Positions 6,663 through 55,100 of a DNA stretch of 64,000 nt are shown piece by piece. The notes below the pieces were generated by a model. The model made no database searches. It worked only from the letters and a program-made list of their open reading frames with translations, and was not told where the DNA came from. Position 1 is the first letter of the stretch. The number at the start of each line of letters is the position of its first letter. This DNA is from Chrysophaeum taylorii. Lineage: Eukaryota > Sar > Pelagophyceae > Pelagomonadales > Pelagomonadaceae. The translations under genes were made by a program, and so were the position numbers. The stretch lies in the NCBI GenBank assembly GCA_029834535.1, contig JAQMWT010000297.1, positions 62,001 to 126,000 of the forward strand. The letters are read 5' to 3'.

Positions 6663-6871
6663 TCCACCCACATCCTTCATGCTCCCCACACACACCCCCC
6701 TCTTAGCAGTCGACATTTAAAGACAAACAGACAAACATCTGTCGATTAGTAGTAAGGAAGAGCCCCCAAATTTAAAACCACGACTCCTTTTTAACAGAGA
6801 GTTGGGTCGGCCGACCGTGGTGATCATCCATCAGTATCATCAAGACGTAGGAGGCACCAGTGGAATATCTC

Positions 6872-7187
6872 TGCAGAGAAATCTGCTAACTCCTACCCTT
6901 ATTCCGTCCGTTGAGAACGCGATCTCTTCCTTACCCTTCTCCTTCCTTTCTACACAGTCAATTAGTCCTCTGATCTGTGCTCACGCTCATCATCATGGTC
7001 TAGCGCGTCCCGCAGGTACGTAGTAATTACATGTTACCCTGATGTGTTGCTATGTATCGTCTGTCGTGTGAAGAGGCTAGGGGGACCACTGCCTGGGTTC
7101 CCTGAAACCTACCAGACTGCCAGACCCACGCGGTGAGACGGGATAGTCTCTCAGTGATATAACCACTGCCGAGCGTCATACTCTGCA
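6872..7187 (+). repeat. 5' LTR
   Basis: 316 bp, with 7-bp inverted ends TGCAGAG/CTCTGCA. It aligns over its whole length with 19018-19339. It should hold the promoter and polyadenylation signals, but I could not place a TATA box with confidence. Confidence 0.93.
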
Positions 7188-7202
7188 GGTTATGGGCCCA
7201 GC
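7188..7202 (+). promoter_or_regulatory. Primer-binding site for a half-molecule of initiator tRNA-Met
   Basis: GGTTATGGGCCCAGC starts at the first base after the LTR. It is complementary to the anticodon stem-loop of an animal-type initiator tRNA-Met (CUGGGCCCAUAACC), not to the tRNA 3' end. Drosophila copia uses the same region, priming on a cleaved 5' half of the tRNA. Confidence 0.85.
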
Positions 7203-7710
7203 GGGGTCCTGAGGGATTATGTGTTGCATGCACGTTTACCATTGGGTTTTGGATCGTTACCGCGCCGATCTAGCCTCGCCATGCAACAGAATTGTTTGTA
7301 TACGCTATAACACGGGTTTGTACATAGCTACATCGCACACGTTAAGACTGCGTACCCCCTGTGTGCTTGTTTATGGTATCGTACTGTCGTGAAAGCGTCG
7401 GTGTGTGTGTAGTCTGTACAAGTCCTGTATTGGTTGCACGCGCGCTTGGAATATTTTGGGTATGTCCTCTTTTTGGATGCTCCACGATAGTACACAACAT
7501 GCCGCTCTCCGAGCACCCCCTTACCAACTGCCTGTTCAGTGTATGCCCCTTTAACACTGGCAGGAACCACTGTTTTGCAAAGTTGCCACATAGGCGCCTC
7601 CATTGTTTACCTGATGAGTGTACATAGACACCCGCTAGACAGACCCCCTTAGGATGTCTAACTGTGTCAACTGTTATATGACTGAACTATAGGTTCACGT
7701 CACCGTCTTC

Positions 7711-9859
7711 ATGGCGGAACGAGCAGCAAGAGCCGCACCCAAGGCAGTCACTGGTGCGGATATTTTGAAATTAGAAGCCCCTGTTGTTGAGTACCTCAGC
7801 GATGGGAACCGATTTCAAATCCAAAGCCGCAAGGTCTCACTTCAAGTGAGACATATTAGGCAATTACTGCGTTTCCACCACGCAGGAGCCCTCTTCGAGT
7901 ACGACTCGCACGAGGCTTATACGAGGTCCTGCCCTGACTATGAAGTCAAGCGCAATAGGATTCTCGACCGGGTATTCCGGGCCTGGCAACAGAGTGGAGG
8001 AATTCCACCTCCCAGATGTCGAAGATTTGCCTCCTGAATATTAGAGCTGGCACTTCACATGTGAGGCGCTCCCTAACTTACTTGACCGTGAAGTAGCACA
8101 GTTGGCCACTGTTTGCTATAATAATGAGGTCAAAGCCCTTCGCCCAGAAATAAATAACTTGTTCTTAGACGCTGAACGGGAGCTCAATCGCGAGCATCCT
8201 CGTGAACTTGCCTTTGATGCAAGAATTAACGCTCCAGTGTCCACCTTTGCCCTTTCACATGCAAACCTACCAATCTACCTATGCCACCTTTTTGTATACC
8301 TTTTCCAATCACGAAAGTGTGGGTAAACCCGCTCTTGCGGCCTGGCCAGCCATCGCCGAGGTATACAACCGGCACTATCATCCTAATAAAACCCGAGCTA
8401 TCATGCTCATTGCCTTTAACCTCTACGAAACAGTCTCTAGTAATGACGTTCCATATCTAAAACAGCAATTCAATACTGTTGTGTACACCCCCAACTGGTA
8501 TGTACATGTCTTCATCGAATGCGTGCAGTCCTTCGGACATCTTTCTTTCCAACTTACTCAGGAAGAAACAGATCTACAGTTTGATCAATCCACGCTCTGC
8601 AGTAAAATTTATGAAGAAGCTCACCGCCATTTTGCCGATGACAGCAACAATCGTTACGATAGAGGGTGGGTCGACTGGTGCCTCGTCTATGAAACACGCA
8701 CCTCCACTAGAGCGCAACCTGAAGCCAACAGACACTGTCACCCTTCTGACTCCTCTGCTATTCTTGAGTACGCACTGGACCTCTACCACTCAGTGTCCAT
8801 TACCACAAGCGATAAAAGACGCCTAAAACCGCCAGTCTCTTGGATCCCTTACGTGGAAGGATTGTCCGCACATCAAGAGCCCAAATTACTGCTAACTCAA
8901 CTGCTGGACTCCACAGACACTGAACTGGCGTACACAGCACATGTACTTGCGTCACTTACCAATTCAGCCAATGGACAACCGTCGAAACCCGCATTTACTG
9001 CCCGACGCCAACGTAACTCAAAAGACGCTAGTCGGCCCTTCTCGCCCAACGATCTTAGCTACTACCGATCCGGTGACTCCTATGTCACCAGAGCCCGCAG
9101 TCCTGGTCAATCTAACGACCGCCCTGTGTGTGCTCGCACCTTTGACAGACCTTCTCGATCTGATATGAAATTATTAGTCGCACCAAGCATACTATGCATG
9201 CACTCAAATATCAATTCCGGGAGCTCTCCAAGTACGTCAATCAAACTACCACTACCTCTCAGCTGCAAGATAAGATTACAAAGCTATTTGAAACGTTGTT
9301 GCAATCTGCAGATATTATCGCTACTACATCTAACCCAGACGATAATACAGACTTGCTCCGCTTAAATGATCAACTTTCATATGCCGAAGGTATCGTTCGG
9401 AATGTTGACATACACCGGCTTTCGACCGAAACGTCGTTAAACTATGGGGGAGACCAACCTACCATGTCTGCACCCAACACCTCTACTCCACCTAACTCAA
9501 GTGGCACCAGCTCTTCACCAGCCACTGCTGCTGCCGCGGAATCAGTCAATTTTACTGCTGACGCCATAGCAAAATTGTCACCTGAGCGACTTACGGAGCT
9601 CTCGTCACATGTCACTGCAGCAATGTGCCGAAGGAGTTCCGATCAAGCAGCGGCCAATACTACATTGTCGAGCAACCCACAAGATCTCTCACCCTTCGAT
9701 CTTAACAACGGTCTCGGCAAGGACAACGGGGAACCTACCGCGCTCGTCGTTCCTATTACCTTTTCACAAGTCGTGGTCACCTCAAAACTGCTCACTCAAA
9801 CTAATTTGTTCGCAGCCAGCATTCCTTCTACCAGTGTACCCTGCGAAAACGCTAACTAA
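7711..9859 (+). pseudogene. Gag-like region of the Copia element
   Basis: Coding-like sequence in three successive frames: 7711-8037, about 8102-8300, then 8290-9180, returning to the second frame at 9194-9859. It begins MAERAARAAPKAV. It shows helix-rich stretches such as YEVKRNRILDRVFRAW and a Thr/Ser/Pro/Ala-rich tail. No CCHC zinc knuckle, the usual gag nucleic-acid finger, was seen. The assignment as gag rests on its position between the primer-binding site and protease. The motif TETSLNY (9425-9445) divides the helical part from the Ser/Thr-rich tail. The frame changes make a full product impossible as the sequence stands. Confidence 0.6.
9425..9445 (+). other. TETSLNY motif, copy 1 (gag region)
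   Basis: First of five copies of a TExSLNY peptide in the element; followed by GGDQP. Candidate protease cleavage site. Confidence 0.55.
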
Positions 9860-10208
9860 CTAACTTCAGACCTCTCCCGAGCATGGGAGCCAGGCCGGAC
9901 CGACAGGAGCCAGTCCGGAATCACGGGCCTGTAGACGAGGGGCGCCGAAAGGTGGGTCGGCGGAGAGTGATCATCAAGCTTGTCGCCATGCGACGAGGAG
10001 ACCGCGATGTGACTGACAACCAACTCGTCGATAACCTTCCGTCTGCGCCCCCCGGCCATACCCCGTCCCACTGCGAACGTTCCGGCTGCCAACCGGCCCG
10101 CCCGAGAGGCGAATAGGTGCCAACCTACGCCGGGAGGGCGGATGCCCTCGCAAGGCTCAGGGTTCATGAGGCACCGTCCTCCATCGCAACCATGCGGTCG
10201 GCGATCAG
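9853..10208 (-). repeat. SINE-like short interspersed element, copy A
   Basis: About 356 bp, nearly identical to 22751-23108. It starts with TAAC repeats and ends GGCGATCAG on the plus strand. Read on the minus strand, it would end in a GTTA-type tail, as SINEs often do. It sits between the gag and protease regions of the Copia element, so it inserted later. No target duplication is visible at this copy. Both copies keep a minus-strand open frame of about 100 codons (CDGGRCLMNPEP and following), of unknown meaning. Confidence 0.75.
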
Positions 10209-10290
10209 GGTAAGGGTAAAAGCCTGAAAACACTTTTCTCACCAATACCGGAGAGACCATAATCTTCCCCTACATTTTCAATTTCTATAC

Positions 10291-10753
10291 TTGGACAGTT
10301 GTGCTTCCATCTCGCTGATAACCACATTCGATTTTGCTTTACCGAATCACATTATTCCCGTAGACGCTAAATGTGCCCCAGTTGTCCAAACTGCCACTGG
10401 ACAACAGCAGGTATCGCATATCATGGTTACGAAAATATATAGTGTCCCCTTTGCCTGCTCAACAAGGCATTGGCTACGTCAAGCTTGACTATGCCCTATA
10501 CCTCAAACCAGCGCAGGGTCGACACTTGTTCATCCTAAGTGCCCCTGAGTGGAACAAGGCTCAGCTAACTGTCACTCTCAATGACAGTGAACAGCCAAAT
10601 ATGTCGCACCTCACTAGCTTACTTGATAAAGATGTGCATGTGCCCATTCACTACGTCGACCACGACCTCCCTGCAATACCGTGTCTACCCTACACACTTG
10701 CACGCGATACGAACCTTGAACTACGTTCACTATCCTTCCCGCTGAAGAGGTAG
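10291..10753 (+). pseudogene. Copia aspartic protease region
   Basis: The frame from 10291 opens with LDSCASISLI, matching the Copia protease active-site box (usually LDSGAS). The catalytic Asp codon is at 10294-10296, but the following Gly is Cys here. PVVQTATG follows at the spacing of the flap region. The frame then changes near 10,450 into the one ending at 10753, which continues with LDYALYLKPAQGRHLFIL. The protease should cut the polyprotein; five TExSLNY motifs in the element are its possible targets. The Gly-to-Cys change and frame break argue that this copy is inactive. Confidence 0.65.
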
Positions 10754-10951
10754 AACGAAAACCGTGACCTTTGCCACTATTACAATTACCTGGTCACCAA
10801 GCTCGAAACTCGACCGTGGCTGCATACTCTACTTCTCAACCTTCGGAAGCAGAATGAATATGTAAGAAACAACACTCCACCTCTCACCTGACTACGCACC
10901 CGTCCAGCATTCCTATCAACTACCAACAATGGCTCTCGTAAACCAACTGTC

Positions 10952-12640
10952 ATGTTACCATGCTCTGGATTGTCAACACCTGCGTTTCTGTCACAGGCCA
11001 CCAATGACTTGGGCTTAAACATCCACGTTAAGATTGCTGTTGAGTCCGACGAAACGCTCGTACGCATGCTGCGCAAACAATTTCCAAAGATTATTATCTT
11101 CGAATCTCTACTCTCCTTCCTCGATCATCTCCAGTCTATAAAGGAGGATGAAAGACGGAATTTTAACTGTGATGTGATAGAAATCACTCCCCCTTGTACC
11201 AACCGAAGCCTTATCAAGAGCACCAAAACATCCGACTTGGCCAGTTTACTCGATGACTCCCTCTTTGACAGTATGCTATCTGTCATCAAAGTATCAAGCC
11301 CTTAGTTCTACTTGCGGAGATGACATCCCCTCACAAGTGCATTCACAGGGATCACATCTCCGTAGCTAACCTCATTCACGCCACACTGGACTACACTGTT
11401 GATGTATTCGGCCGCTTCCCTACCTATCTGTGCGGCGATTATCAATCTCGGGAACGATGGATCTGCGTTGCTCGCATGTACACAGTGGACCCATGGACAT
11501 CCTGTCCTGGCCGAACCAGCACCCGAAGCGCTTCTTGGACATAGCAGATGACGTTAACTCCGTGCCTAAAACCCTCTGGCTCTCCAAGGCACTGTCTCAA
11601 GGCTGGGTTCGCACTTACCCAGATCCACCATTGGTTCACTCCCCCAAGACGTTTCCCTTGTACTCTCGTACTGGCTCCGTTCGGCTTAGCTTATATGAGC
11701 TCGAGACCCTCAACCTACTCTTCCTCAGGCTTCATTCACAGCAAGCTTTCGAACAACATACACATAAAACGCACTCGGAGTGTTCCTATCATCACATTGG
11801 CTTCAAGAGGTCTTCTAATCAACCACTACCCGGGTCATCAAATCCTCTTCGCCTCAAGGCATTTATCACCCTATACAATTTGTTCGCCAGAATCTCGCCG
11901 AACAACCCTACACCTGTATCTTACTATGTTACGATCTTCGAAACTAACCAGCCCGCTCCTAGGCTATTTATTACAACTTCCTCATCTACCTTCAACATCC
12001 ACACTCTTACCGGTGGACACCACTCTGATGGCACCTTACTAGTTGAGAACAATGCAAGCAAATACCAGGCTTCCATTGACGCTTATGGATCTACTTGCAC
12101 CCTAACAGCCAGCGATAACCCCGCCGACAAGAAGCTCCATCTCGACTCGTTTCAGAGATACCTATGGCTAGTGCAAGCCTACCCCCTTGTCAACGCAGCC
12201 CACAACACTGTCCCTGCCATCCGCAACTTACTCCAACAGTGCTCTCTTGTTATACCTGACTGTCTCTCATACAACCAACCCTCCGACCAATTCACTTTCA
12301 AGGACAGATATTTTTCCTTGGAAGATTACCATCTTTCTCATAGCAGGTATATTGGCTACTTACGCGGCAGCGACCGCAAGCTCGGATCCAAAATTCACTC
12401 TATGTCGGCTCCATTGCCAACTATCCGGGGATATGCCAGTATCATCTTGCTGGAGCCTCGCAACGGCAAACTCCGCTACCCCACGCGAGCCGAACTTATC
12501 AAAGCTAACAACACACTTGCTTCCAGACGTCCTTCTTACTTTCATTGAAGAAAGACTTATGCTGCGGCCTACTCAGCAATGCTCTACCTGCGGGCACTTA
12601 TCACACTCTTTACACCCACCTCTGTCGCGTGGTCGCCGAT
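10952..12640 (+). pseudogene. DNA cytosine-5 methyltransferase domain within the Copia polyprotein
   Basis: The C5-MTase motifs occur in the right order. Motif I-like LPCSGLSTPAF is at about 10955-10987. Motif IV CDVIEITPPCTNRS is at 11168-11209, with the catalytic Cys codon at 11195-11197. Motif VI-like KPLVLLAEM is at 11296-11322. Motif VIII GDYQSRERWICVAR is at 11434-11475. A target-recognition region of about 300 residues follows. PLPTIRG with RYPTRAEL lies at about 12408-12500, and motif X LLSNALPAG is at about 12569-12595. Together they indicate transfer of a methyl group from AdoMet to C5 of cytosine in DNA. Motif VI has AEM in place of the usual ENV. Three frame changes (near 11300, 11480 and 12540) break the gene. 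It lies between protease and integrase and ends at a TEMSLNY motif, as if released as its own mature protein. Confidence 0.85.
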
Positions 12641-12805
12641 ATGAAGTCACTTATGTTGAACCCTTCCTTTCAACATGACAGTGCTACCTTGAAGAAGACT
12701 TACGTATCTACCTTCCTCACCGGTGAACTGCTTCGTTCCAGTCACAGCTCAGACACTATCTTTCAGGCGACTGCATTCATGAGTCATATCTCCAACTGCA
12801 GCTGG

Positions 12806-12826
12806 ACCGAAATGTCGTTAAACTAC
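12806..12826 (+). other. TEMSLNY motif, copy 2 (methyltransferase/integrase border)
   Basis: Followed after two codons by TAG (12833-12835); integrase sequence continues in the same frame after that stop. Confidence 0.6.
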
Positions 12827-12835
12827 CGTTCCTAG

Positions 12836-14980
12836 GGAACAACCCCTGAAGAAGCCCTTGCTATAACTCCCACTGCTGATGATGCTGACACTAACGATGA
12901 TCCTGATGCCCCATCATTAGACGCATCCACAGAGCTAAAATTCAATGTCCGTCGGCAGAAAGACATCCCGGTCAAAGCAATCCCTCGCAAATCACTCGCC
13001 CATGGCACAGTCGAATACCAAAATGCCAAAGAACGCGCCAACCGCTTCCACAATGTACATCACTGTCCTGATAACGTTGCCGCCAAAGCCCCAGACGTTC
13101 TTGCTCGCCCTGGCTTCTCAGCATCCGATCCCCACAGGGATATGTGCATAGACTGCATTTGCCACGACAAACGTCACCGCCACGCCCATACCAACGACAC
13201 CAAGCCCAACTTTGAACAGACCCACCGACCTGGTGAAGTCTGGGCCTGCGATGGTGGCTACGTAACCATACCATCTGAAAGGGGCGGCTTCTCCCATATT
13301 ATCGTTTTCAAAGAACTACTATCCAAGTTCCTACTCGCCTACTTCACTCGCACCGCTAACGCCACCGAATTTACTCAAGCATTAGACTATCTGCATAACT
13401 TTTGCAAAACGCAACTCAATGTGCACCTACGCACAGTATACTCCGATGCGTTCCGGCCGTACTTCAGCCAGCACATCACCACTCCTTACAGGGTCGAACA
13501 CGGCATCAACCTTGTTGCTTTCCCACCTTACCTTCATCCATCATTTTAACCACGAGGTCGAACAGAGCATAGGCTTTATCGCCTCCGCCTCATCTACTTG
13601 CCTCCGTAACCTTCTCAATGCCCATTACCGTGGCGCCAAGATCGTGGAACCTGCCATCCACTTCCCGTGGGCTGTGATCCACACCATCCAATCATACAAC
13701 CTCTTGCCAAATGCCTCACTCGAACGCATTCACCACGCCATCATCAGCCCTCAACAGTTTCTTCACAATCAGCTAGCAACACCTCAACATGATCTCATCA
13801 AGATCTTTGGCAGCGAGTGTTTCCTCCTTCTTGTGCCTCGTGAACATCACAAGTATGAGCCCTCTCGGCGCCGCTATCTCTACCTGTGCTGCGCCAACTC
13901 CCAAAACCCACTTGTCTCTCCTCGTGTCGACCATCAAGCTGATGTTGTCCTTAATCCTGAAAATGGCCAGCTTCGCATCACCTCTAAACTGACCTTCACC
14001 TACATGATCCGCCGCTCCACCTTGGATCCTGAACATGCGCCACTACCTGATGCTCCGACAATATCCTTCGACATTAGCCCTCATCGCGATGAAGACCCCG
14101 ATGATGCGTTGCAAAGGGGGATTCATCCTGAGAGGGGGCACACGCCCGCTCCTGCCCCGTCGCCAACTCCGCATCCTTCTCCTAAGCCTACATCCGCAGC
14201 CTCACCACCTGCTGACGACACTACTTCTCGTGACGACAATACCATTTCGCCACCGCCAATTCGCCCTTCTTACAAGGACTTGTTATCTCAAGACCACCTT
14301 CAACTTGTCCCGGGGACTAAGCGCCCCAACCAGCGTAAAGCCTCCTCCATGACCTCTGTCAATGCTCGGCTCCAAGCTTCTACGGTTGGTTCCTATAAAG
14401 CCGCTGGCGGCAAACTCGCTGACTTCCGCTGGGACCTTCAACATCGCTTTCTCGATTTCAAATCACCCACCCTCTCCTCCCTCAACACCTCTGGTGGCAT
14501 CCACTGGACGGCTCTCGGCCCAGAGGGGGAACAGGCTCTGCAGGTCAAAAACTTCCTTCCATTGCGTACCGATCTTCTATCTCGCTACCCCTTACTCGAT
14601 GGTGCTTTCTCGCAAACCAAATGCGCATCCAGCATCCCAGTAGCTACACACCTCCTCACCGATGCCACTCCTAGTGGCCACCTCCCGCCTTCACTTGTCG
14701 CTATGTTCATGGAACATGCTTCAGCGTTTGGTGTCTCCCCATTGCAATACACTTACTGTTACTTGGCACCCACCAGTCTCATCGATCACTCGCCATCTGA
14801 GTTTGGCGCTGCGCCGAATTGTCTGACCTGGAGGAATGCCTCCTATGCACTGCCGAGTACATCACCCAGGTACTTCAGGAGGAACCCCTCCTGGTTGTTG
14901 CCTTGACCTTGGAACCTGACCACTCTAACCCTTCCACTTGTGCCACTCACGCATATCCTGAAGTCCTCTACACTGCTTCG
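12836..14980 (+). pseudogene. Copia integrase with long C-terminal linker
   Basis: The zinc-binding HHCC domain is visible as FHNVHHC followed by MCIDC (about 13040-13160). The catalytic core shows WACDGG (Asp codon 13250-13252), VYSDAF (13437-13451) and HEVEQ (about 13550-13564), matching the D,D,E triad. The frame changes between the second Asp and the Glu, near 13,540. The core should insert the cDNA into the genome. A long Pro/Ser-rich linker (PAPAPSPTPHPSPKP) follows, then a conserved stretch FRWDLQHRFLDFKSP that recurs in the remnant at 40,041. Another frame change near 14,850 joins to the TESSLNY motif. Confidence 0.85.
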
Positions 14981-15001
14981 ACCGAATCGTCATTAAACTA
15001 T
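14981..15001 (+). other. TESSLNY motif, copy 3 (integrase/reverse transcriptase border)
   Basis: Followed by GSPATIG and TAG (15023-15025); reverse transcriptase continues in the same frame. Confidence 0.6.
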
Positions 15002-15025
15002 GGCTCTCCAGCCACTATAGGTTAG

Positions 15026-16831
15026 AACGAATACAAAGTCCAAGAGGCCGACATATCCATCGACGAGTACAAGCTCAAGTGTCTTCAAGGCCTTTCCCCT
15101 GAAGACAGACAAGCCTATGTCAAGGCCATCGCAAAGGAACTACATGATATAGTGCGCTTCGGCTGCTTTAAGCTATCTCTACCTGATGCCTCTACTCGTC
15201 CAATTGACAGCCGGCTCGTCCTCAAGATCAAGACGAACGCGTCTGGCGATTACATCAAGCACAAGGCCAGATTAGTCTTGCGTGGATTTCTAGCCTCACT
15301 TGGCGCTGATTTCTTTGGGACGTTCAGCCCTTGGCAACTATGACCGCCATACGTATCATCTTAGCAATTCCGGCGTACAAAAGACTACCGGTCTACCATA
15401 GTGACGTGCCCAACGCGTTCGTCCAGTCCGACATCGATGCACACGTCTACGTCCAACTCCCGGATGGCATCAAACTACTTGATCCTCACGACGATAAATA
15501 CCGTGGCCGCCGCTTACCCAAGTTGCTGAAATCCCTTTATGGCCTGAGACAATCTCCCTCTCTCTGGAACAAAGAGATCGACGGCTTCTTTCGGAGTCTT
15601 GGATACAAGCGACTCCATGCGGATACGTGCTTATATGTGCGCACATCCCACACTCGCTTTGTCATTTGCAGTTTATCAGTGGACGACATTGTTATAGTGT
15701 CAAATGATGACACTCTCCGCACAGAGTTACAAGAAGCGTTACACGAGCGCTTCTCTGTGGAACAATTCGAGCCAGTCCATACTCTTTTGGGAATGCGTGT
15801 CTGCCGAACGTCGGATGGATCCATATCGTTAGATGTCGAAGCCAAACTAGAAGCATTATTTACCGACCATCCCACACTAAAAAAACCTCACCCCACTACG
15901 GTATCCTATGTCATCCACTTTTACTTATAAAGAAGGCTCCCCTTCTACCGATGTGGAAATTTATATCCACGATCACTTCGGTACTCTACGTGGTAAATTG
16001 GTCTTCACGCAAGTTGCTTGTCGCCCCGATTTCTCCCAAGCTCTAGGACGCTGTTCCCGAGGTATGCACTCTCCCACCTATGTGCATGTCCAAATGCTCT
16101 GTCACCTCCTAAGGTACCTCAGCAAACCTGCCAATCGAGCTCCTCGTCTCTGGTTTCACCCTAAAGGGAATGCTATCGAAAACCATCTACGCGCTATTTC
16201 GTCTAATAGAGTTGACCTGTCAACAATAATCGACTACCGGGACAAAGACATCGCTGCTGGCAAGTTCGACCCTCTAGTTGCTATGGTGGATGCCGACAAC
16301 TCTCCTTCACTGGAACAGGAAGTTTTCTACCTGTTCAACTGCTTCATCGCCTGGAAAAGCAAACTACAACCCATAGTTTCGTGTTCTACCCACGAAGCTG
16401 AGCTTATCGCTCTCAGCATCTGCGCTCACGAGGCAGTCTGGCTCCGTAAGTTACTTCTTGGGCTCTCGTTTGTTGTTAATCCGACATTCTATATGAATAC
16501 GCAAACTGACCCTCCTTCCGATTTTGACGCTGACGACAATCCTATTGCCGAGGATATGCGCTTCATCAGAAGCCTACCTCTTTTGTCTGATAATGCTGCA
16601 GCTGTGCACACGTCCAACAACCCAGACGGTTCTTCTTGTAGCAAAGCCCTTTCCACTCGATGGTTCAAAATTCGAGAATATGTCGCACTACAGCAAATTC
16701 GTGTTCACCATGTCCCTGGCAAGTTAAACGTAGCTGATGGCCTCACAAAGCCTCTTGCAGCCGACTTTACCACATTCCGTTCTTTTCTAGATATGCACCA
16801 TGCTACTGACTCAGACCAAGAAGATACCTAA
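15026..16831 (+). pseudogene. Copia reverse transcriptase and RNase H
   Basis: RT landmarks are VLKIKTNASGDYIKHKARLV, then DVPNAFVQ, LYGLRQSPSLWN and the catalytic SVDDIVIV (usually YVDD) at about 15676-15699. RNase H follows, with AMVDADN, STHEAELIAL, LSDNAAA and RWFKIREYVALQQIRVHHV, ending DGLTKPLA. Together they copy the element RNA into DNA and remove the RNA. A one-base deletion near 15330 splits the RT; the related copy at 40,709 reads straight through the same place. A second frame change near 15,905 separates RT from RNase H. The order after integrase is diagnostic of Ty1/copia. Confidence 0.92.
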
Positions 16832-16843
16832 TCTCTAGCCCAG

Positions 16844-16861
16844 ACCGCAATGTCATTAAAC
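16844..16861 (+). other. TAMSLN motif, copy 4 (after RNase H)
   Basis: In the RNase H frame, four codons after its TAA stop; the motif ends directly at TAG (16862-16864), where the other copies have Tyr. Confidence 0.45.
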
Positions 16862-16874
16862 TAGCCCTCATCTT

Positions 16875-18883
16875 TTGCCACTATTTTTTTTTGTGTACGT
16901 CGTCGCCAATGCATCACTGGCAGCAACCACCCACGTGGAGTCACGCCCGCCCGACGCGAGTTACCTCGCACACTTACGCCCGCTGAGTCGTCTACCAACA
17001 CTCCTCCGAACCGTAGGAAACCAAATCGCGACGACATTACTCGTCTGCTCTCATCCTCTGCTGCTGCGATCCGGCCTGGCTCCAACCCCTTAGCCACTTT
17101 TGCCGATGCTGTCGTTTTAAATGTTTCTCAGCAGGAACATGGATCATCTATCACGTCAGACCAAAAAAATTCGAAACCCCTTTCACCTGTCTCTTATCGT
17201 CCTTTCTACATACAGACCCACTCAAGGCACTTGATTCCATCTACGCATCTCGCGATCACTTGGACTACCAGATCTTCATGGAACTGTCGAACTTCTGCTC
17301 AGTCAGAAAACCAGTCGTCTTCCCTCTGCCTTCTGCACCTTCAATGTACGCTACACTCTGCTATTGAGGTCTCAAGAAGGAGACCCAACAGTCTTCATTT
17401 CACTGCCTTTAATGCTTCGACAACGACGGCAAACCGCTCCTAATCTGTGTCTCCTATTATAAAAGGAAGATAGACGAGTTCCCTGCTGCTGTCTTAGAAC
17501 ATCTCGCCAGCGAATCACATATTCGCAATGCCTTCATACCTGTCTCTATTCCAACTATGGGTATGTGTTGTGCGTGTAGAAACTCTGACCACATTGCCCT
17601 CTCGTTTCTTTTCCTCGCGTGGAACGCACGTATAATTGTTTTTCCTTGTGAGTCATCACCCGCTGGTCACCTCCGTGCCACCATCCTCCGTGTTTTCTTT
17701 CTCCCATTGGATCTGCAAGCACTGCTCCAAGAACTAATCAAGGAACACGCACTACCCGCTGATATTATTATTACTTCCCCAGTCATAACAGATTCATAAA
17801 TTGCGGTGGCTTACCCCTTCAACCCCGTTTATTTCTCGGCTTCATCTGGAACACCTGTCGCTTATTGTGACAATTTTTCGCACACATGCAAAGAAACAGT
17901 CGATGATTAAGGCAAGTGTTTATCAGCCTTTGGTTCACGCTCTCTGCCGCTCTCTCGTACATCACATTACTCAGTACAACACACCGGCATATGATGAACG
18001 ACCACCATCTATCTTTGACGAAGTATCTTCACCGACTACCTTTTGCGACACCGATCGCAAAGATTTTGCTAAGCTCTTATCATCACGCTACCCCGACCTC
18101 TATAACGAATCTACCCCTGCGACGGAAAAGTCAGTAAACTACCCGCCAGTGGCACCTACTGCCCCGGCACCAACACAACCTAGCACTACTACCTCTCTAG
18201 ATCTTGCGGCATTATCCTCTCAGGTGACTCAACTTACCCAGCGGGTAGCAATTCTCCAAACTTCATATGGACAAATGGACCAACGTCTCCACGCCTTAAC
18301 TACTGAAAATGCTGCCTTACGGTCTGATTTAACTACTGCTGTCACAGACCTCCGTGACATGGAAAATCGGCTATTCCCAGCCACTACTAATACCAACGTT
18401 CTGCTGGTAACCCTATACAAGGTGTGTGAGTTACTCAACAGACTCACTCTTGCCTTGAATGACCAACACGACTTAGTGTTTGGCTTGCCTGATGATACTC
18501 TCCTTCAACTCCGAAACGAGTTAATCCGCACGACACATCATCCTGCCTTACAACAAACTGAGTCCCTCCAAGATCCTTTCACCATCCCACAGTTTCTCGA
18601 GAATAACCTCGATGAATTGCAATTGAGCAGCCTTATCCCTCAAATCTTGCATCGCCTGCTCGCTCATAACCACAGGATCATACCTCAACACTGGTCTGCA
18701 AAGAGTATTAATCATCCTTCTGAACCTGAAAATGATGACGTTCCTGCCATATGTGAAGTCCAAGAGGACGAAGCAATTTCTTCACCGTTATCGTTGACAT
18801 CTGCCGCATCACGTTCACTTCCCTCTTTTAAAGTTTCCCTTGCCAAAAGCATTCAGAGTGTTATCCCCAAGTCCAAGCACTAA
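16875..18883 (+). pseudogene. Extra 3' coding region of the Copia element, coiled-coil protein
   Basis: About 2 kb between RNase H and the right LTR, where most Copia elements have almost nothing. The longest frame (17801-18883, 360 residues) contains TEKSVNYPPV at 18122-18151, then a Pro/Thr-rich linker. A heptad-patterned stretch follows (LAALSSQVTQLTQRVAILQ..., about residues 127-185 of that frame) that should form a coiled coil, and then a helical C-terminal half. The earlier part (17231-17800) is split among frames. No membrane segment typical of an env-like protein is evident. The layout of helices, cleavage motif and low-complexity linker resembles the gag region, so it may be a second structural protein. 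Function unknown. Confidence 0.55.
18122..18142 (+). other. TEKSVNY motif, copy 5 (3' coding region)
   Basis: Followed by PPVAP, so the site reads NY/P, the classic pattern cut by retroviral-type aspartic proteases. Confidence 0.5.
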
Positions 18884-19011
18884 CATCTGTTTGCTGATGA
18901 ACCTGTTGTGCCACTTTATGTGACCTCTGAAGTGCACTTCTTGTTTATCCTGATCTCGTCCTCCATCACATTACTCTAGAGATGTCATTTTCCTCAACCA
19001 CAAGACATCTC

Positions 19012-19017
19012 GAGGGG
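19012..19017 (+). promoter_or_regulatory. Polypurine tract
   Basis: GAGGGG directly abuts the first base of the 3' LTR, the usual place for plus-strand priming. Confidence 0.7.
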
Positions 19018-19339
19018 TGCAGAGAAATCTGCTAACTCCTCCCCTTATTCCGTCCGTTGAAAACGCGATCTCTCTTGCTTACCCATCTCCTTCAATTCTA
19101 CACAAGTCAAATAGTCCTCTGATCTGTGCTCACGCTCATATCATCATATGGTCTAGCGCGTCCCGCAGGTACGTAGTACTTACATGTTACCCTGATGTGT
19201 TGCTATGTATCGTCGGTCGTGTGAAGAGGCTAGGGGGACCACTGCCTGGGTTCCCTGAAACCTACCAGATTGCCAGACTCACGCGGTGAGACGGGATGGT
19301 CTCTCAGTGCTCTAACACTGTATAGCGGAATACTCTGCA
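19018..19339 (+). repeat. 3' LTR
   Basis: 322 bp, starts TGCAGAG and ends CTCTGCA. It differs from the 5' LTR by about 25 substitutions or small gaps by eye. Followed directly by the ATCTC target duplication. Confidence 0.93.
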
Positions 19340-19461
19340 ATCTCGATACAAAATCTATAACGACGACGACGGCAAGAGAATCACGGGCGGTTGGATTACA
19401 CCCCTACGCCTCATGCCCCGGGCCGGCCTATAGCTAGTTATTATAGTTCGTTACAAGAGAA

Positions 19462-22750: not shown

Positions 22751-23108
22751 TAACTAAACTAACTTCAGACCTCTCCCGAGCATGATGGGAGCCAGGTGGG
22801 ATTGAGAGGAGCCAGTCCGGAATCACGGGCCTGTAGACGAGGAGCGCCGAAAGGTCGGTCGGCGGAGAGTGACCATCAAGCTTGTCGCCATGCGACGAGG
22901 AGACCGCGATGTGACTGACAACCAACTCGTCGATAACCTTCCGTCTTCGCCCCCCGGCCATACCCCGTCCCACTGCGAACGTTCCGGCTGCCAACCGGCC
23001 CGCCCGGGAGGCGAATAGGTGCCAACCTACGCCGGGAGGGCGGATGCCCTCGCAAGGCTCAGGATTCATGAGGCACCGTCCTCCATCGCAACCGCAGTCG
23101 GCGATCAG
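22751..23108 (-). repeat. SINE-like element, copy B, at the end of the NCBP3 gene
   Basis: About 358 bp, nearly identical to copy A at 9853-10208. It is flanked by a perfect 14-bp direct repeat GGTTAGACCGCTAC (22737-22750 and 23109-23122), as made by target-primed reverse transcription. On the minus strand it would end in GTTAGTTTAGTTA, a short tandem tail. The duplicated target contains the last codons and stop of NCBP3, so the gene kept its stop. Confidence 0.82.
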
Positions 23109-23110
23109 GG

Positions 23111-24010
23111 TTAGACCGCTACGTAGCGCCGTTTCTTCTTTGGCGGGGGGCGTTCGAGCAGGACATCCTCCTCGCGCGCGTAGCGGCACAAGAGCCGCGT
23201 TCCGTAGGCCCCCTTCTTGCCCCACTTGTCATCCCGCGCCTTGCGGACGGGGCTGCTCAGGAGTCGCCACGCGCTCAAATCCACTTGTTGTTGTTGTTGC
23301 AGCCCTAGGGACGCGGGGGCCGGGGGGATTTCAACCGTCAGGGCCGCCATCGCGCGCCCGGCCGTGTGTTGCTCGGCGAACCACACGTTGCACGCCTCAT
23401 CTCCGAGCCACTCGACGTAGGTCGGGGAATATCGCCCAAAGTGGGCTAGCAGATCTGCAGACCGGAGCTTCTTGAACGAACCGCGGTCGACTGGCAGGAC
23501 GCGCGCGCGTGCAGCCGCTCGGACGTTTCCGCCGCCGCTGTCTCGCGGCCCTCGTCGACGCCGTAGAGCTGCGATGCCTCGAGCTGCAACGCGGCGAGCG
23601 TCGCACTAAACCGCGCCCACGCGACGCCCCCCTCGGCGCCCGCCACCCCGAAACGTGCGAGCCGCTTCGCCCGCTTCTCCGCCTCTTCTTCGTCCCTCTT
23701 CGCCGCGGCGAGCTTCTCGGGCTCCCACCGCGAAAGGCGAGCTTCGCGCTTCGACAACTCCTCTGGACTCGTCACGTCGAACCCCGTCACCACACCCCGG
23801 CCCACCCTCGACAACGACTTCTTGTACAGCGACCACGGCACTTTTTTTTTGCGGTTTCTCCTCCTCTTGTGACGGCGACCCATCCTCTCCTGGTGATGGC
23901 TCCGCCCTCTCAAGCTCCGCGTCGATGTCAAAGTCCTCGACGTTGTCGTCGTCGGCTACTCCTACATCTTCCCCAGCTCCGGCCAAGAGCTCTTCTACGT
24001 CCTCCTCCAT
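23111..24010 (-). CDS. NCBP3-like nuclear cap-binding protein, two apparent frameshifts
   Basis: The N-terminus MEEDVEELLAG is acidic. Next comes GVVTGFDVTSPEELSKREAR, like the ITGIDVTSKEA...R motif of NCBP3 (C17orf85/ELG). Later, LYGVDE and then LRSADLLAHFGRYSPTYVEWLGDEACNVWF match its RRM-like domain (GVDxMST...YF..Y.P..IEWLDD..CNV.W). NCBP3 binds capped mRNA and links it to export. The basic tail PPPKKKRRYVAV may be a nuclear localisation signal. The frame changes at the nine-T run near 23841-23849 and again between about 23480 and 23560, near a GC dinucleotide run. Ordered conservation across the breaks suggests assembly errors in a live gene of about 300 residues. The stop at 23111-23113 lies in the SINE target duplication. 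Confidence 0.75.
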
Positions 24011-46773: not shown

Positions 46774-47077
46774 CAACACCCATCGCCCCTCTTGAAGAAC
46801 CGCGTCATCGGTTCGAATCGGAGATGCGGGTTCGACGGCTTTCGGGGGGCGAAGAAGGTATAGTGGTTTAGGAAGACAACAAAAGGCCCCCCCGGTCTTT
46901 GTGTCCCAACATCAATTTCCTCAACGAAAGTCTGACCAGTTTCTTCGGAGGACCGACGCCCCAACGGCTCTTAGGGAGTCAGTGTCGAAAGGCTCGAATA
47001 CGTCAAGAAACGCGATTTGACGTCACTTGGCCCGATCGATTCCAGTAGTCCAATTTTCTGGCGTCGTCATCATCATC
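46774..47077. promoter_or_regulatory. Divergent promoter region between PI4K and PKS genes
   Basis: 304 bp between the two ATGs. No TATA box or repeat stands out. Confidence 0.4.
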
Positions 47078-49104
47078 ATGCTCGGTGCCGCCGCCCAGGC
47101 CTCTAAGTGGGCGACCCCAAAGCAAGCAGCGGCGCCGGTCTCCTCACAACGCAAACCGCGCATGGTCTCGGCCATTTCGGCCCAGGCGCTCAAGTGGGTA
47201 GACAGCACAATGGAGGACGACGACGACGAAGAAGAAGAAGAAAAGCCGCGCTTAAGAGCGGGGGACACGAGGTTCGCCGCCCTCGAGCTCGCCGCGCGGC
47301 AGCGCAACGAGAAGCCGTGCGACATTTGGGAACCGTTGAAGCACGCCCTCGAGACGGTTCGACCATTGGGAAAGAAAACGATAAGCGACGAGGGTCGACG
47401 CGTCTCGTATTCGTACGCCGAGCTCGCCGAGCGGGCGCGCCGCGTGGGGTCCTGGGTTCGCGATCCCCAGGGTGGCGCGGTAAGAGCGCCGAGTGCGCGC
47501 ATCGGCATCATGACGCCCAACTGCGCGGCGGCGATCGAGGCCCACTTTGGCGTCGTCGGATGGGCCGGCTGCGTCGTTCTCAATTGCAACTATCGCCTCT
47601 CGCCCGACGAGACGGCCTACGTGCTTGATGGAGCAGCCTGCGAGCTCCTCATCGCCGACACGGCCTACGGTAGTCTCGTGGTGACCTCGTTGGCGACAAG
47701 AAACAACCAGGTGCGCCGCGTCGCGTGGACGGGCGACCAGAAGAAGCGGCCCGCGGAGGCTTTGAAAATGGTGGCCCAAGACGAGTACGAGCGGATCGCG
47801 ACGACCTGGGCGGTCGCCGCCCGATTCTCGATAATAGGCAGCGACGACGACCTGGCTGGCGCCGAGATGTACTACACGTCGGGGACTTCGGGACGGCCGA
47901 AAGGCGTCGTCTTGTCGAGGCGCAACGTGGTGCTTCACGCGCTCGGATGCATGGTCGAGCACCGGCTCTCGCCCGGCGACGTCTGGCTGCACGCCGCCCC
48001 CATGTTCCACCTCGTCGATGCCTACGCCATTTTCGCCATCACGTGGGTCGGCGGGTCCCACGTGACGATTCCCGCGTTCTCGGCCTCGGCCGTCGTCGAC
48101 GCCGTGGCCAAGTTTGGCATCACGGTCACCAACGTCGCGAGCACCATGATCACCTTGTTGTTGGCGGACCCCGCAACGACGGCCCGATCTGACGACCTAG
48201 GCTCCCTGGAACTCCTATCTTGCGGAGGCGCCCCGCTTTCCAAGGCGACGGTGCGCAACGCGCTTCGCCGCTTTGATTGCGAGTTCTTCTTGTCGTACGG
48301 CATGACCGAGTGCTGCGGCAAGATCTCCATGTCTCTGTTGGATCCGGCGACGCGCCGCCGCCTCGACGCCAAGACTCTCGTCGACCTCGTGTGCACCTCG
48401 GGCCGTCCCTTTGGTCTCCTTGAGGTTCGCGTCGTCAAGGACGACGTGGACGTGCGGCCGGGCTCGCGCGACGTCGGCGAGGTCTGGATCCGCGGACCGA
48501 CGCTCTTTGGGGGCTACCACAACAACCCAAAGGCCACGAGCGAGGCCATCACGCCGGCGGGCTGGTTCCGCACGGGCGACCTCGCCGAGCTCAACGAACA
48601 CGGCTACCTTACCATCACCGACCGCGCCAAGGACATGATCCTCGTCGGTTCGGAGAACGTTTATTGCGTCGAAGTCGAGCGCGTCCTGCACGATCATCCG
48701 GGCGTCAAGCACGCCTGCGTCTACGGCTTGCCCGACGACGCCCTGGGGGAGCGCGTCAAGGCAGTCGTCGTGCGCAAGGACGACGCGCTCACGGTTTCTG
48801 CGTTGCGCAAGCACGCGGCGGCCCACCTCGCCGACTTCAAGGTTCCCACGCTCGTCGACTTGGTCGACGCGCTTCCCATGACGGGGTCGGGAAAGGTGGC
48901 CAAGGCGCAGCTCAAGAAGAAGGATATTGCAGATCTCGAGGCGCGCCGCGAGCGTCGCCGAGCTGCTGCTGCTCAAACGCCGCAAAGGACGGCGACGACA
49001 ACAAGAAGCACCCCCAAGGCGCTGCCGACGAACGACGACCTCGTCGACCACGTGTACGGCGTCGAGTGGCGGCCCGCGCCGCCCCTGCCTCACATAAACC
49101 GCGA

Positions 49105-49137
<33 letters not shown>

Positions 49138-52100
49138 TGGCGGGGGGGTCATTTCGTGGCTCGTCGTGTGCTGCGAGAGGACGCGCGATTGCGCGCGCGC
49201 TGTGTCGCGACACGTGTCGGCGCAGCGCGCGACGGCGAGCGTCGTGCAGCTGAGCTCGAGCGCGACGCTCGAGGCGTCGCGGGCGACGATCGGCGCGGCG
49301 GTTGCCGAAATGCGATCAAGCATGTGCGGCGCAATCGTGCTGTGCGACGCGGCGCCGATCGATGCCGAGGATCTGGCGGCGCGCACCGCGAGCACGTTGC
49401 GACAAATTCTCGCGCTCGTGCAGGTGATTGGTAAGGAGCGGCCGCAGCAGGCGGTGGTGTTGGCGACGCGGGGCGGGGTCGGCGTGTCGTCGACGGACGC
49501 GAAGTCGCCGGCCGGCGCGGCATGCTGGGGATTTTGTCGGTCGGCGGCGGCCGAGAGCCCGAGGCTCCGCCTGAAGGTTGTCGACTTGTGTCCCGAAGAA
49601 GACGACGACGCCGCCGCCGCGGACGTCCTGTGGCGCGAGGCGCACAGCGAGCTGCAGGAAGTGGCGTGGCGTCGCCGGTCACGATACGTACCCGCGCTCG
49701 CGCGCGTTCCCCGCGACGCGATGAGCACGATGGCGGTGACTCCGGAGCTCGCTGGCGGCACGCACGTCGTGACGGGAGGCACGGGCGGCCTGGGGCTCGA
49801 GTGGGTTCAGCGGCTCGCGAGGGCTGGAAGGGCGACGACGCGCTTGGTGGTCGCGGCGCGACGCGCACCCTCGCCGGCCGTCGAGAAGCGGTTGAGGGAG
49901 TTGGCAGAGGAGACAGGCGCGACCATCCGCGTCGAGCGTGCCGACGTCGGTGACGCCGAGCAGGCCGCGGCTCTCGTGGCGAGATCGCGAGCCCCGTCGT
50001 TGAGCGTCTGGCACCTCGCGGGCGTGGTGGACGACGGGGCGGCCCAGACGCTCACGTGGGAGCGATTCGAAAAGGTGCTGGCGCCCAAGGTCGCCGGAAG
50101 CGTCGCGCTCTACGAGGCCGCCAAGCAGCACAACGCGCAGCGGCTCGTGTTGTTTTCGTCGATTTACGGGTTGCTCGGGGCGCGCGAGCTGACGCACTAC
50201 GGCGCGGCGAACGCGTTCCAGGACGGGCTCGCCTCCGCGGCGGGGGGCGGCGGCGGCGTCCTGGCGGTGAGCTGGGGCACGTGGGCGGACGCTGGCATGG
50301 CCCATCGATTTGGCGCCGGCTTCGAGGCGCAGGTCAAAGCCTCGGGGATGCGGTTCGTGCCGCTCGACTCGGGCTTCGCCGCCTTGGCGGCGCTCTCGAC
50401 CACAGCAGCCCGGCGCTCGCACGCGGCTGTCTTGCCGGCCGACTGGAGCGTCTACGCCAAGCGTCGTCGCGACCTCGGATTAGGGCCGCACCCTTTGGCC
50501 GCCGCCCTCGCCAACCTCGGCCCCGAGGACGAGCTGCCCGCGCAGCGCGACGCCAAGGAGCCCTTGGAACCGTACGTCCTCTCGCTCGTCGCGACGCTCC
50601 TCGAGACGTCGTCGTCGTCGTCGTCGTCGTCGGTAGCCCCCAAGAAGACGATCGACCCCGAGGCGCCGCTCGCGGCGCTGGGTCTCTCGTCGGTCCACGT
50701 GGTCGACCTCGCCGGACGATTAACCGAAGCTCTCGACGTCGACGTCTCGCCGACGTTGCTCTTCGAGTGCGTCTCGGTGCGCGGGCTTTGCCAGCGCCTC
50801 TCGGCGTCGTCGGCGGAGGAGAGGCGCGCGTCGATGACCTTCGCCGAGCTCCTCCAGGCGGTGTGTCTCAAGGTGACGGAGATGACGGGGGCTCGGCCGC
50901 CCATCGACGTCGAGGCGCCCGTTTCCGCAATAGGTATGACCTCGGTCCATTCGGTCGAGCTCGCGGCGTTTTTGAGCGACGCGCTCGACGAGGACGTCTC
51001 GCCCACGGTGGTTTTCGAGCACGTCTCCATAAAGGGCGTCTGCGCGCACCTCGCCGGCGGCGTCGACGATGCGGCGGCGGCGGCGGCCGTCGTCTCCCCC
51101 CAGACGCCCGCGGCGATTCCCCCGCCGCGGGACCGCGAGACGTTTGTCGCCGGCATGGCGTGCCGCTTCCCTGGCGGCGCCGCGGTCCCCGAGGACCTCT
51201 GGCACAATCTGCTCGCGGGGCTGGACTGCGTGATGGACGAGCCGCCCGCGAACCGGCCTCACACGGGCCGCGGCGCGGCCTACCTCTCGGCCGAGGTCGT
51301 CAAGGGCTTCGATCGGGCCGCGTTTGGCATCTCCAAGGCCGAGGCGACGGCCATGGACCCCCAGCAACGACTCCTCCTCGAGACGTGCGCCGAGGCGCTC
51401 GAACGATCGGGCCGGCGCTCGACGCCCGTCGCGCCCGCGAGCGGCGCCGAGCAGCCGGTGGGGGTATTCGCGGCGATCGAGACGTCGGACTACGCCGCGC
51501 TCCACCAGCGCGCGGCCGCGCAAAACGGCGCGACGATCGACGCCTACTGCGGCACGGGCTGGCACTCGTGCGTGGGCCCGAACCGCGTCTCGTACCTGAT
51601 GGACCTCCGCGGCCCCAGCGTCGCCCTCAACACGGCCTGCTCGAGCTCGCTGACGTGCGTCTCGGTCGCCCGCCACGCCCTCGCGGCCGACGAGTGCGAC
51701 GCGGCCCTGGTCGCCGCCGCGAACCTCCAGTTCCAGCCGTACTGGACGTGCGCATTTGTTGCCGCCGGCATGCTCAGCCCCACCAATCGGTGCCGCTTCG
51801 GCGACGACGCGGCCGACGGCTACGTGCGCGGCGAGGGCGTCGGCGCCGTCGTGCTCGAAAAGAAGACGCGACTCGAGGCGACGGCCGCGATCGCGGGGGT
51901 CGGCGTGGGCCAGGACGGCCGGTCGAACGGGCTCACGGCCCCCAACCCGGCGGCCCAGGCGGCGGTGCTGGCGGCGGCCTACTGCGGCGCCGACGACCGG
52001 TCGCGCGTTTCGCTGGTCGAGGCGCACGGAACCGGCACGCGGCTCGGCGATCCGATCGAGCTGGGCGCGCTCGGGGCCGCGCGTCTGGGGCCGTCCGGCT

Positions 52101-55100
52101 CGGTCCTCCGGTGCGCCTCGATAAAAACGAACATCGGTCACCTCGAGGGCGCCTCGGGCCTCGCCGGCCTGATAAAGGCTGCCCTCGTCCTCTGGCGCCC
52201 CGAGAACCAAGCGCCCCGCTCGCTCCACTTTAAGACGCCCAACGCCCACGTCCCCTGGGAACGCCTCGAGCTCGCGGTCCTCGCGGCCGCCGAGCCCCTG
52301 AGCGCCGACCCCGCCGCGGCCGTCGGCGTCAGCAGCTTTGGTTTTGGCGGCGCCCTCGGCCACGTGTCCCTCCGACGGTGTGGTGGTGGCCGAGGGAAAG
52401 AAGAGGGGGCTGCGACGAAGCGGGGTTCTGGTGGCGCGTGGGTGCCGCTGGCGGCGCACTCGGGCGCGGCCCTCGAGGCGACGGCCGCACGTCTCGCCAA
52501 GTGGGCGCGCAACGACGACGAGAATCGCGACGTCGGCACCATCGCGGAAGCGGCGTGCGCGCGGCTCGGCCTCGCCGACGCCAAGAGCCGGCCCTTCCGC
52601 GCGGCCGCGCTCGTCGCGGCGGGCGACGGGCCGCGCGATCTCGCCGCGCGCCTCGACGACATCGCCGCCGCCGCCGCCGCCGCCAAGACGTCGCCTCCCG
52701 CCGGAGCGGCGGCGGCGGCGGCGCCGCCGCCGCCCAAGGTGGCCCTGGTGTTCACGGGGCAGGGCGCCGCCTACCCGGGTATGGGCCGCCAGCTCTACGA
52801 CCGCATCCCCGCCTTCAAGACGGCCTTCGACGAGTGCGCGGCGCACCTCGCGCCGCACCTGGGGGGTCGCGAGCGCCTCGATCTGGCCGTGCTGGGCGAC
52901 GACCCCGGAGCGCGCCAGCTCCTGGAGGACGCGGCCGTCGGCCAGCCCGCGCTGTTCGCGTTCGAGGTGGCGCTGGCCAGGACCCTCGAGGCCACCCTCG
53001 GCCTCAAGCCCGCGGCCGTGTGCGGGCACTCGCTCGGCGAGATCGCGGCCATGACGGTGGCGGGAAGTTTACCGCTGGCGTCGGCGGCGGAGCTCGTGTG
53101 CGGGCGCGGCGCGGCCATGGCGAGCCTCGACGCGAGCGGCGGGATGGCAGCCGTGCGGGCCCCCGCAAGCGCCGTGGTGCCGGCGCTCGAGGGCGGGGTC
53201 CAGCTCGCCGCTGACAACTCGAGCCTCGGCTGCACGATTTCCGGTCCCGAGGTGGCCCTCGAGGCGGTGCTCGAGAAGCTGGCGCCGGCCTACAAGACGA
53301 AACGCCTCGACGTTTCCACGGGCTTCCACTCGTGTTGCGTCGACGCGTGTCTGCCCGTGCTCCGAGACGTCGCCGGCGTCCCTGCCAAAATACCACCGCC
53401 AGAATGTCCCGTCTTCTCGACGCTCGACAGCCGCCGCCTCGAGACGCCGCCCGACGCGAGCTACTGGTGCGCGCAGGCCCGCGGCACCGTCCGGTTCGCG
53501 GGCGCCGTCGCGACGATGCTCGCGACCCTCGAGGGAGGAGGTCGTCCCGCGGTCGTCGTCGAGGTCGGACCCTCGCCGCACCTCACGCCCCACGTCGCCG
53601 ACGTCGCCCGGACGGCGGCGACGGCCCTGGGAACCCTCCGCGGACCCAAGCACCGCGGCGCCGAGGTCGACGCGCTCAGCGCAACCGCGTCGGCCCTCTA
53701 CGGAGCTGGCTGCGACCTTCCCGCGACGACGGCTTTAACGGACTGCCGCGCGTGCCTTGCCTTGCCTCCCACGTCCTTCGTGTCCCCCGAACCCTGCTGG
53801 TTCTTCGAGGAGGAGGAGGAGGAGGAGCACGACGACGACGAGGAGGAGCCGAGTCATCATCACGATCCCCCCGGGGGCCGCGGACGGCGTCGCCTTCGCG
53901 GCCGCGTGGGCGCCCGCGCCCAAGCCCGAGCACCGCGGCACCTGGTCGCACGTGCTGCTGTTGCGCGACGGCAGCGCCGAGGCGCGCGAGGCGGCGCGGT
54001 GGCTGCGCACGGCGAGCGTCGTCACCGAGCTCCCGCTGGCGGCGGCGGCCAGCACGACGGCCCAGGCCTGGGACGCCGTCTTCTTCGCCGCCGGCTTGTC
54101 CGCGTCGTCGTCATCGTCGTCCGCGGCCGCGGCGGCGGAAAGGAGGGCCGCCGCCCCCCAGCAGCAGCAGCAGCAGCAGCAGAAGCGGTCGGCCGACGAG
54201 AAGACGCCCCTGCTCGGGTCCGGCGGCGGCGGGACGACGACGACGAGTACTACGAAACGCGCGGCGGCGGCGGCGGCCCCCGGACCTCGCGACCCAGCCG
54301 ATCGTCGAGCTCCAGGCAGCGCTGCGCGCGGCGCTCGGCGCGCCCGCCGCGCGCGCCCCCAAGCGCGTGGTGGTCGCGACGGGGGCCACGCCCCTGGGAG
54401 GCGCGCTGGCGGGTCTCGCGCGGTCGGCGCGCCGCGAGGCCGAGCTGTGCGCGCCGCACGTGGCCGTTCGCGTGCTCGAGGTCGACCGCCTCCCCCCCAA
54501 AGCGGCCGAGGCGCTCGCGCAGCTCGCCGACGACGACGTGCAGGTCGCGGGCCGCGAGGCGCGGGTGCGGCGCATCGTGAGCGTCGACGCGCCGCCCCGG
54601 CGCCAGGCGGCCGAGCGCCTCGCGGCGCGCGGCGCGGTGGCCGTGACGGGGGGCACGGGCGCCCTCGGCCTCGTGACGGCCGAATACCTCGTCCGCCGCG
54701 GCGCGACGCGAATCGTGTTGATATCGCGGTCGGGCCGAGCGCGCCCGGCCGACGCGCCGCTGCGCGAGGCCCTCGACCGCGCGGCCCTCGAGGGCCGCGC
54801 GACCGTCGAGATCGCGAGGCTCGACCTGGCCGACGCGCGAGCGGTCGAGAGGTTCGCCGCGGCCCGCGGAGCGAGTCTCGCGGGCCTCGTGCACGCCGCG
54901 GGCGTGGCCAACGACGGCGCGCTGGCGTCGCGCACGGCCCAGACCCTCGAAGGGGCGCTCGCGCCCAAGGTTTTGGGAGCGATGCGCCTCGCGGCCGCCC
55001 TCGACGCCGCGCGCGCGAACGAGCCCCTCGGCTTTGAGCTCTACTTTTCGTCGACGACGGCCCTTCTCGGAAACGCGGGCCAGACGGACTACGGCGCGGC

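Follow-up and report, generated by a model that had tools for sequence, protein, structure and literature searches.

C5-methyltransferases (C5-MTases) carried by retrotransposons are already known from dinoflagellates and Klebsormidium, where they occur on LINE, DIRS and Gypsy elements. KnitGypsy-Dnmt3 of Klebsormidium nitens holds its C5-MTase within the Pol open reading frame of an LTR retrotransposon and is under purifying selection (PMC5890265). SymbioDIRS-Dnmt3 and SymbioLINE-Dnmt of Symbiodinium are retrotransposon-borne C5-MTases present in hundreds of copies, mostly with Ka/Ks < 0.2, and the same source describes Symbiodinium Copia elements without any DNMT domain (PMC5890265). De Mendoza and colleagues proposed methylation of cDNA for the DIRS elements and of RNA for the LINEs (PMC5890265). 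An earlier note on the DNA analysed here had named precedents from dinoflagellates and charophyte algae, and that paper bears it out. Copia is named as a carrier in passing in PMC12344493, in text that concerns streptophytes, dinoflagellates and DNMT3 and cites the 2018 paper. Among stramenopiles, Sola1-1_Ec32 of Ectocarpus is a transposon with a DNA methyltransferase gene (PMC12477816). The genome paper of the pelagophyte Chrysophaeum taylorii describes a 71-Mbp assembly in 702 contigs, for which Illumina data were combined with nanopore and PacBio data, and its main text has no words beginning with 'transpos', 'repeat' or 'copia' (PMC10366177). A search of the PMC literature (with subscription journals, preprints and repeat databases outside its range) found no report of an MTase-bearing Copia element in pelagophytes or other stramenopiles.

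The window analysed is a 64,000-nucleotide stretch (C297:62001-126000) of the 70.8-Mb, 697-contig C. taylorii genome. It contains an LTR element at 6872-19339, flanked on the left and right by the target site duplication ATCTC (6867-6871 and 19340-19344). The 5' LTR (6872-7187) and 3' LTR (19018-19339) are 316 and 322 bp long and 91.6% identical in a single blastn piece, and the LTR ends are TGCAGA...TCTGCA. Adjoining the 5' LTR is the primer binding site GGTTATGGGCCCAGC (7188-7202), which is complementary to the anticodon arm of an initiator-Met tRNA; the polypurine tract GAGGGG (19012-19017) adjoins the 3' LTR. The LTRs, the primer site, the polypurine tract and the coding regions that follow are all on the plus strand. 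A gag-like region with broken frames spans 7693-9859 (stop-to-stop pieces 7693-8037, 8169-9365 and 9164-9859), and two of its pieces gave no match when scanned against Pfam. The protease region (10228-10753), also with broken frames, has an LDSCAS motif recognized by eye. Further downstream lie an integrase with a zinc-finger region (12836-13546; rve E 1.9e-5, under Pfam's cut-off), a Copia-type reverse transcriptase (RT; 15026-15927; RVT_2 E 1.3e-5 and 1.1e-29, and 7.7e-42 in the relative L041) and the end of the RT with an RNase H-like region (15881-16831; motifs by eye, no Pfam match). An extra coiled-coil open reading frame of 364 aa (17789-18883) lies between the RNase H region and the 3' LTR; its match to ATG16 (E 1.3e-5, under the cut-off) is probably due to coiled-coil bias.

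The order is thus protease, integrase and Copia-type RT, with MTase motifs between protease and integrase. Integrase upstream of RT, an RT of the RVT_2 type and LTRs with a target duplication, the features by which Ty1/copia elements are recognized, are all present, and the earlier description of a fully bounded Copia-type element holds. The usual Ty1/copia element is not known to carry an additional enzyme in the protease-integrase interval; the MTase domain in that slot makes this one a Ty1/copia variant and is no ground for exclusion.

Several other observations were made in the window. A dispersed short repeat of about 360 bp (9862-10224) is inserted in the window copy and is absent at the same place from L011-L014; it is 95% identical to window 22764-23111, has in the element copy a duplicated stretch of roughly 9 bp on its two sides, and is also present in L017, L018, L044, L049, L064 and partly in L055. 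ARAGORN called a tRNA-Leu on the minus strand at 10534-10613, within the protease coding region, which is probably false. A second, different Copia-type RT lies on the minus strand at 61529-62296 (RVT_2 E 7.9e-11), and long polyketide-synthase-like frames (acyl-CoA ligase, ketosynthase and acyltransferase by eye) occupy 47021-58863.

The MTase motifs of the window copy are spread over four pieces in three frames, and this copy is old and frame-broken. The first piece (10892-11302) carries the motif I-like CSGLSTPAF (10961-10987), motif II and the motif IV PPC (Cys codon 11195-11197). From the alignment of relatives, the second (11269-11541) carries a VI-like AEM (Glu codon 11317-11319) and motif VIII, QSRER (11443-11457), and the fourth (12509-12835) an X-like SNALP (12575-12589). 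Between motifs VIII and X runs the long third piece (11403-12545); this later part of the MTase has 112 matches in the genome, although in some cases a single copy accounts for two of them. The order and position of these motifs agree with what the earlier note had described in the protease-integrase interval. The C5-MTase consensus has FxGxGG in motif I and ENV in motif VI; family A, as we call the family of the window element, has CSGLSTP without the second Gly, and AEM instead of ENV. Motif IV PC, motif VI Glu and motif VIII RxR follow C5-MTase order and spacing in family A, except that L064 has ADM, in which Asp replaces the Glu. None of 200,000 shuffles of L041 fitted the PPC / Glu / [QN]xRxR spacing pattern, which was composed after the motifs had been seen and fits 78 of 121 MTase proteins.

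Profile searches gave a graded picture. For the 137-aa first window piece, the only PHROG matches were two DNA-methyltransferase families, both weak (phrog_363, E 0.069; phrog_116, E 0.085), and two other window MTase pieces matched no DNA-methyltransferase PHROG. Eleven relatives were scanned, some as partial frames: phrog_116 ('DNA methyltransferase') was reached by L013 (E 2.1e-6) and L032 (E 4.7e-6) and weakly (E 0.028-0.21) by L053, L041, L011, L016 and L066, with nothing for L012, L063, L058 or the abundant type L037. The host DNMT2-like protein matches the same PHROG at E 6.6e-22. Of two relatives scanned with PADLOC, L032 was called a cytosine methylase (E 7.8e-4) and L037 gave nothing. 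NCBIfam had no match for family A, PDB sequences gave none or unrelated ones, and an AlphaFold2 model of the 137-aa piece was uninformative (mean pLDDT 40.5). Scanned singly against Pfam, the four window pieces matched no family at E ≤ 1. Only three of 21 family A members reached PF00145 (L032, E 5.6e-4; L066, 0.056; L013, 0.073), the other 18, some of them partial frames, being without a match at E ≤ 10; the best score (L032) was 19.9 bits against a curated cut-off of 22. Unrelated Pfam families also turned up at similar size in family A, the best being DUF3822 in L058 (E 0.0022). At the threshold used in the PMC12344493 survey (PF00145 at E < 0.0001), none of the 21 would be counted. The earlier note had offered the lack of a PF00145 match in three frames as a refutation. 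The window copy and 18 of 21 relatives indeed lack one, yet PHROGs, motif spacing and conservation identify an MTase; because so few members reach the profile, that test would fail wrongly. On the combined evidence the segment is very probably a C5-MTase domain, with catalysis predicted.

Family A motif spacing fits that of DNMT2, the sole comparison set that was assembled. The distance from the PPC Cys to the motif VI Glu is 41 in all 25 family A sequences, and that from the Cys to QxRxR is 83 in all 21 that reach this motif; the DNMT2-like medians are 44 (range 37-64, n=117) and 83 (76-115, n=92). When a 13-sequence family A profile was aligned to 120 DNMT2-like proteins, the observed score was reached by 1 of 200 and 1 of 700 column shuffles, and a profile of L032 and L013 alone gave 1 of 700. 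A 25-sequence profile was weaker (21 of 300). When 2293 frames were searched with a DNMT2 profile, both host MTases were recovered, along with a single unrelated frame of 98 aa (E 0.0093), but family A was missed; the reverse direction gave nine weak real matches ahead of the first reversed decoy.

The element has many relatives in its own genome. Of 930 candidates, 150 were scored as matching the catalytic part of the MTase, and 122 of these are stop-free in the matched stretch by our own count, which ignores frameshifts. Contigs C10 and C297 share identical or near-identical matches around the window element and another copy, which suggests a haplotig or duplicated contig, so at least one match is counted twice. 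One open frame of 1691 aa holds MTase, integrase and RT together. With pairs left out whose dS was saturated or low (≤ 0.15), dN/dS was 0.04-0.17 for the MTase catalytic half (15 pairs), 0.06-0.59 for the rest of the MTase and 0.06-0.57 for the integrase. The high values (0.46-0.59) all involve L048 or L013 or, in the integrase, L037, and are tentatively attributed to shifted frames in these copies. MTase distances track those of the protease (27 copies) and of the integrase (20 copies) with r 0.989 each, matched by 0 of 2000 Mantel permutations; these sets were what remained of 46 and 32 copies once duplicates were dropped, and nearly all of the relatives fetched had been picked by the presence of the MTase segment. 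This tracking implies that the domain travelled with the element. The low dN/dS and the co-inheritance lead us to reject the idea that the segment is a chance-captured MTase pseudogene in decay. Judged by its sequence, the domain has been kept from decay as the element diversified. Outside this genome, no protein-database relative turned up among 7660 and 2196 candidates. A pattern search of IMG/VR found no relative, nor did a search of prokaryote genomes, made for the second element family only.

An in-frame TGA, followed in the window copy by CTA, separates the gag-protease frame from that of the MTase at 10889-10891 (plus strand). The fetched loci and the window together give 32 distinct junction sequences, and in 29 of them TGA comes immediately ahead of the MTase frame, as found with a pattern anchored downstream only that leaves loci without a pattern match uncounted; the exceptions are CGA (L027), TCC (L064) and CAA (L066). 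The TGA persists while the neighbouring codons vary: in some junctions the next codon is CTA, CTG or TTA, in others ATG or ATA. Readthrough is known to occur in the context TGA CTA. Upstream of the TGA, the frame of L043 and L044 stays open for at least 493 codons, and no RNA structure 3' of it was found in four copies (z -1.1 to 0.2). This conservation suggests that the TGA is a site of programmed recoding, which we consider likely.

A second MTase-bearing family (family B) emerged from a PF00145 search of the genome. Its 57 matches comprise a DNMT2-like gene (CTAYLR_008533, on contig C634), a second host gene and 55 others, of which six (L003-L008) were read for family B, with L042 as a longer stretch around L004 (C120:36000-44500). 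The second host MTase (L002, P0001), which from its layout we presume to be perhaps DNMT5-like, lies within a 2086-aa frame; its motif I, CSGTEAPL, resembles the element's CSGLSTPAF. The MTase of L004/L042 matches PF00145 (E 3.4e-8; 33.7 bits in L004, above the curated cut-off), phrog_116 (E 7.7e-10) and PADLOC MTase_II (E 4.7e-10), and PDB sequences gave one cytosine MTase at E 0.84. All six sequences have LPCQ, EN[VA] and SKxRY motifs, and the two distances given above for family A come to 40 and 81 in these six. Two of them (L006, L007) have a protease-like DGGAS motif ahead of the MTase, while L042 has integrase-like frames after it (rve only at E 0.093); the family B MTase thus apparently sits in the same protease-integrase slot as that of family A. 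By hhalign, families A and B showed no match above shuffles (76 of 200 reached the score).

The copies were also searched for a footprint of methylation. Singleton C>T changes were as frequent at CpG (0.0157) as at other C (0.0158). In two subfamilies the CpG rate (0.0092 and 0.0070) was never the highest, which was that of the CT context (0.0119 and 0.0099), so there is no CpG C>T excess among element copies. The element has a CpG observed/expected ratio of 0.88; for window 19500-58000, which also differs in base composition, the ratio is 1.30. These data argue against CpG methylation that is both dense and lasting and is accompanied by deamination; methylation of short duration, or repair that is efficient, is still compatible with them. 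The earlier note had suggested that the element could methylate its own or host DNA; as regards the integrated copies, the missing C>T excess counts against this.

The domain order, the relationship to MTases, the conservation and the co-inheritance with the element are documented here at the level of sequence. The reading that we favour, and hold to be probable, is of an old copy of a Ty1/copia-type element whose family has the order Gag-protease, TGA, C5-MTase, integrase, RT and RNase H, and whose MTase is made by TGA bypass and works in the particle. Gag-protease would be the main product, and occasional bypass of the TGA would yield a long product through which MTase, integrase and RT enter one and the same particle. 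Inside it the MTase may modify new double-stranded cDNA (or RNA, or the primer tRNA) before integration, and the modification might help the element copy survive or pass unnoticed. What suggests an activity inside the particle, whether its target is cDNA, RNA or the primer, is the location of the MTase next to integrase and RT, together with a dose that stop bypass would control. That the substrate is cDNA is a realistic possibility that we would not yet assume.

The departures of motifs I and VI from consensus, the lack of a methylation footprint and the position of most scanned members under Pfam detection would all suit a domain that descends from a C5-MTase, no longer catalyses, and has become a structural or nucleic-acid-binding component of the integrase-RT precursor. 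We consider this unlikely: all 25 family A sequences collected keep the PPC Cys, the spacing of the Glu and QxRxR does not vary, and dN/dS in the catalytic half is as low as in the integrase. A still less probable alternative is an MTase that acts, as DNMT2 does on tRNA, on the element transcript or the initiator-tRNA primer and not on DNA. DNMT2-like spacing, integrated copies without a CpG C>T excess and the iMet-type primer site are in its favour; however, DNMT2 was the only comparison set, and the matched PADLOC and PHROG families carry the names of DNA enzymes. Chance resemblance in a fast-evolving polyprotein linker might be suspected from the empty single Pfam scans of most copies, but is highly improbable in view of the PHROG matches of L013 and L032, the shuffle test, the low dN/dS and a clear family B MTase in apparently the same slot.

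Extending the favoured particle-borne MTase further is speculative, and the following is doubtful as a whole. A stramenopile Copia lineage may have had its own MTase from a time before today's subfamilies diverged; the enzyme would serve replication, with cDNA, RNA or primer tRNA, rather than host chromatin, as its target. The conserved stop would set the dose of MTase-integrase-RT against Gag-protease, and such elements, missed by PF00145 surveys, may be common in algae. Apart from this extension, the fact that two very different MTase families apparently share one polyprotein slot, between protease and integrase, points to a role in reverse transcription, and such a role is testable, since the host genome has been read by both nanopore and PacBio sequencing. 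More generally, PF00145 surveys can miss a whole element family.

Tca2 of Candida albicans belongs to the Ty1/copia class and is not known to carry an MTase. Like the Chrysophaeum element it contains a UGA, which is bypassed by an unknown mechanism; in Tca2 the UGA lies between gag and pol (PMC2194720), whereas here it comes after the protease and directly before the MTase. Sola1-1_Ec32, unlike the present element, has a transposase and an N4/N6-type enzyme encoded by a separate gene on the opposite strand (PMC12477816). KnitGypsy-Dnmt3 differs in being a Gypsy rather than a Copia element, in its Dnmt3 enzyme, in belonging to another eukaryotic supergroup and in having fewer copies than the elements of Symbiodinium, which are themselves DIRS and LINE elements (PMC5890265). 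The C. taylorii element is a new lineage and variant among these systems; it adds stramenopiles as a third eukaryotic supergroup with MTase-carrying retrotransposons, together with a well-bounded Copia case.
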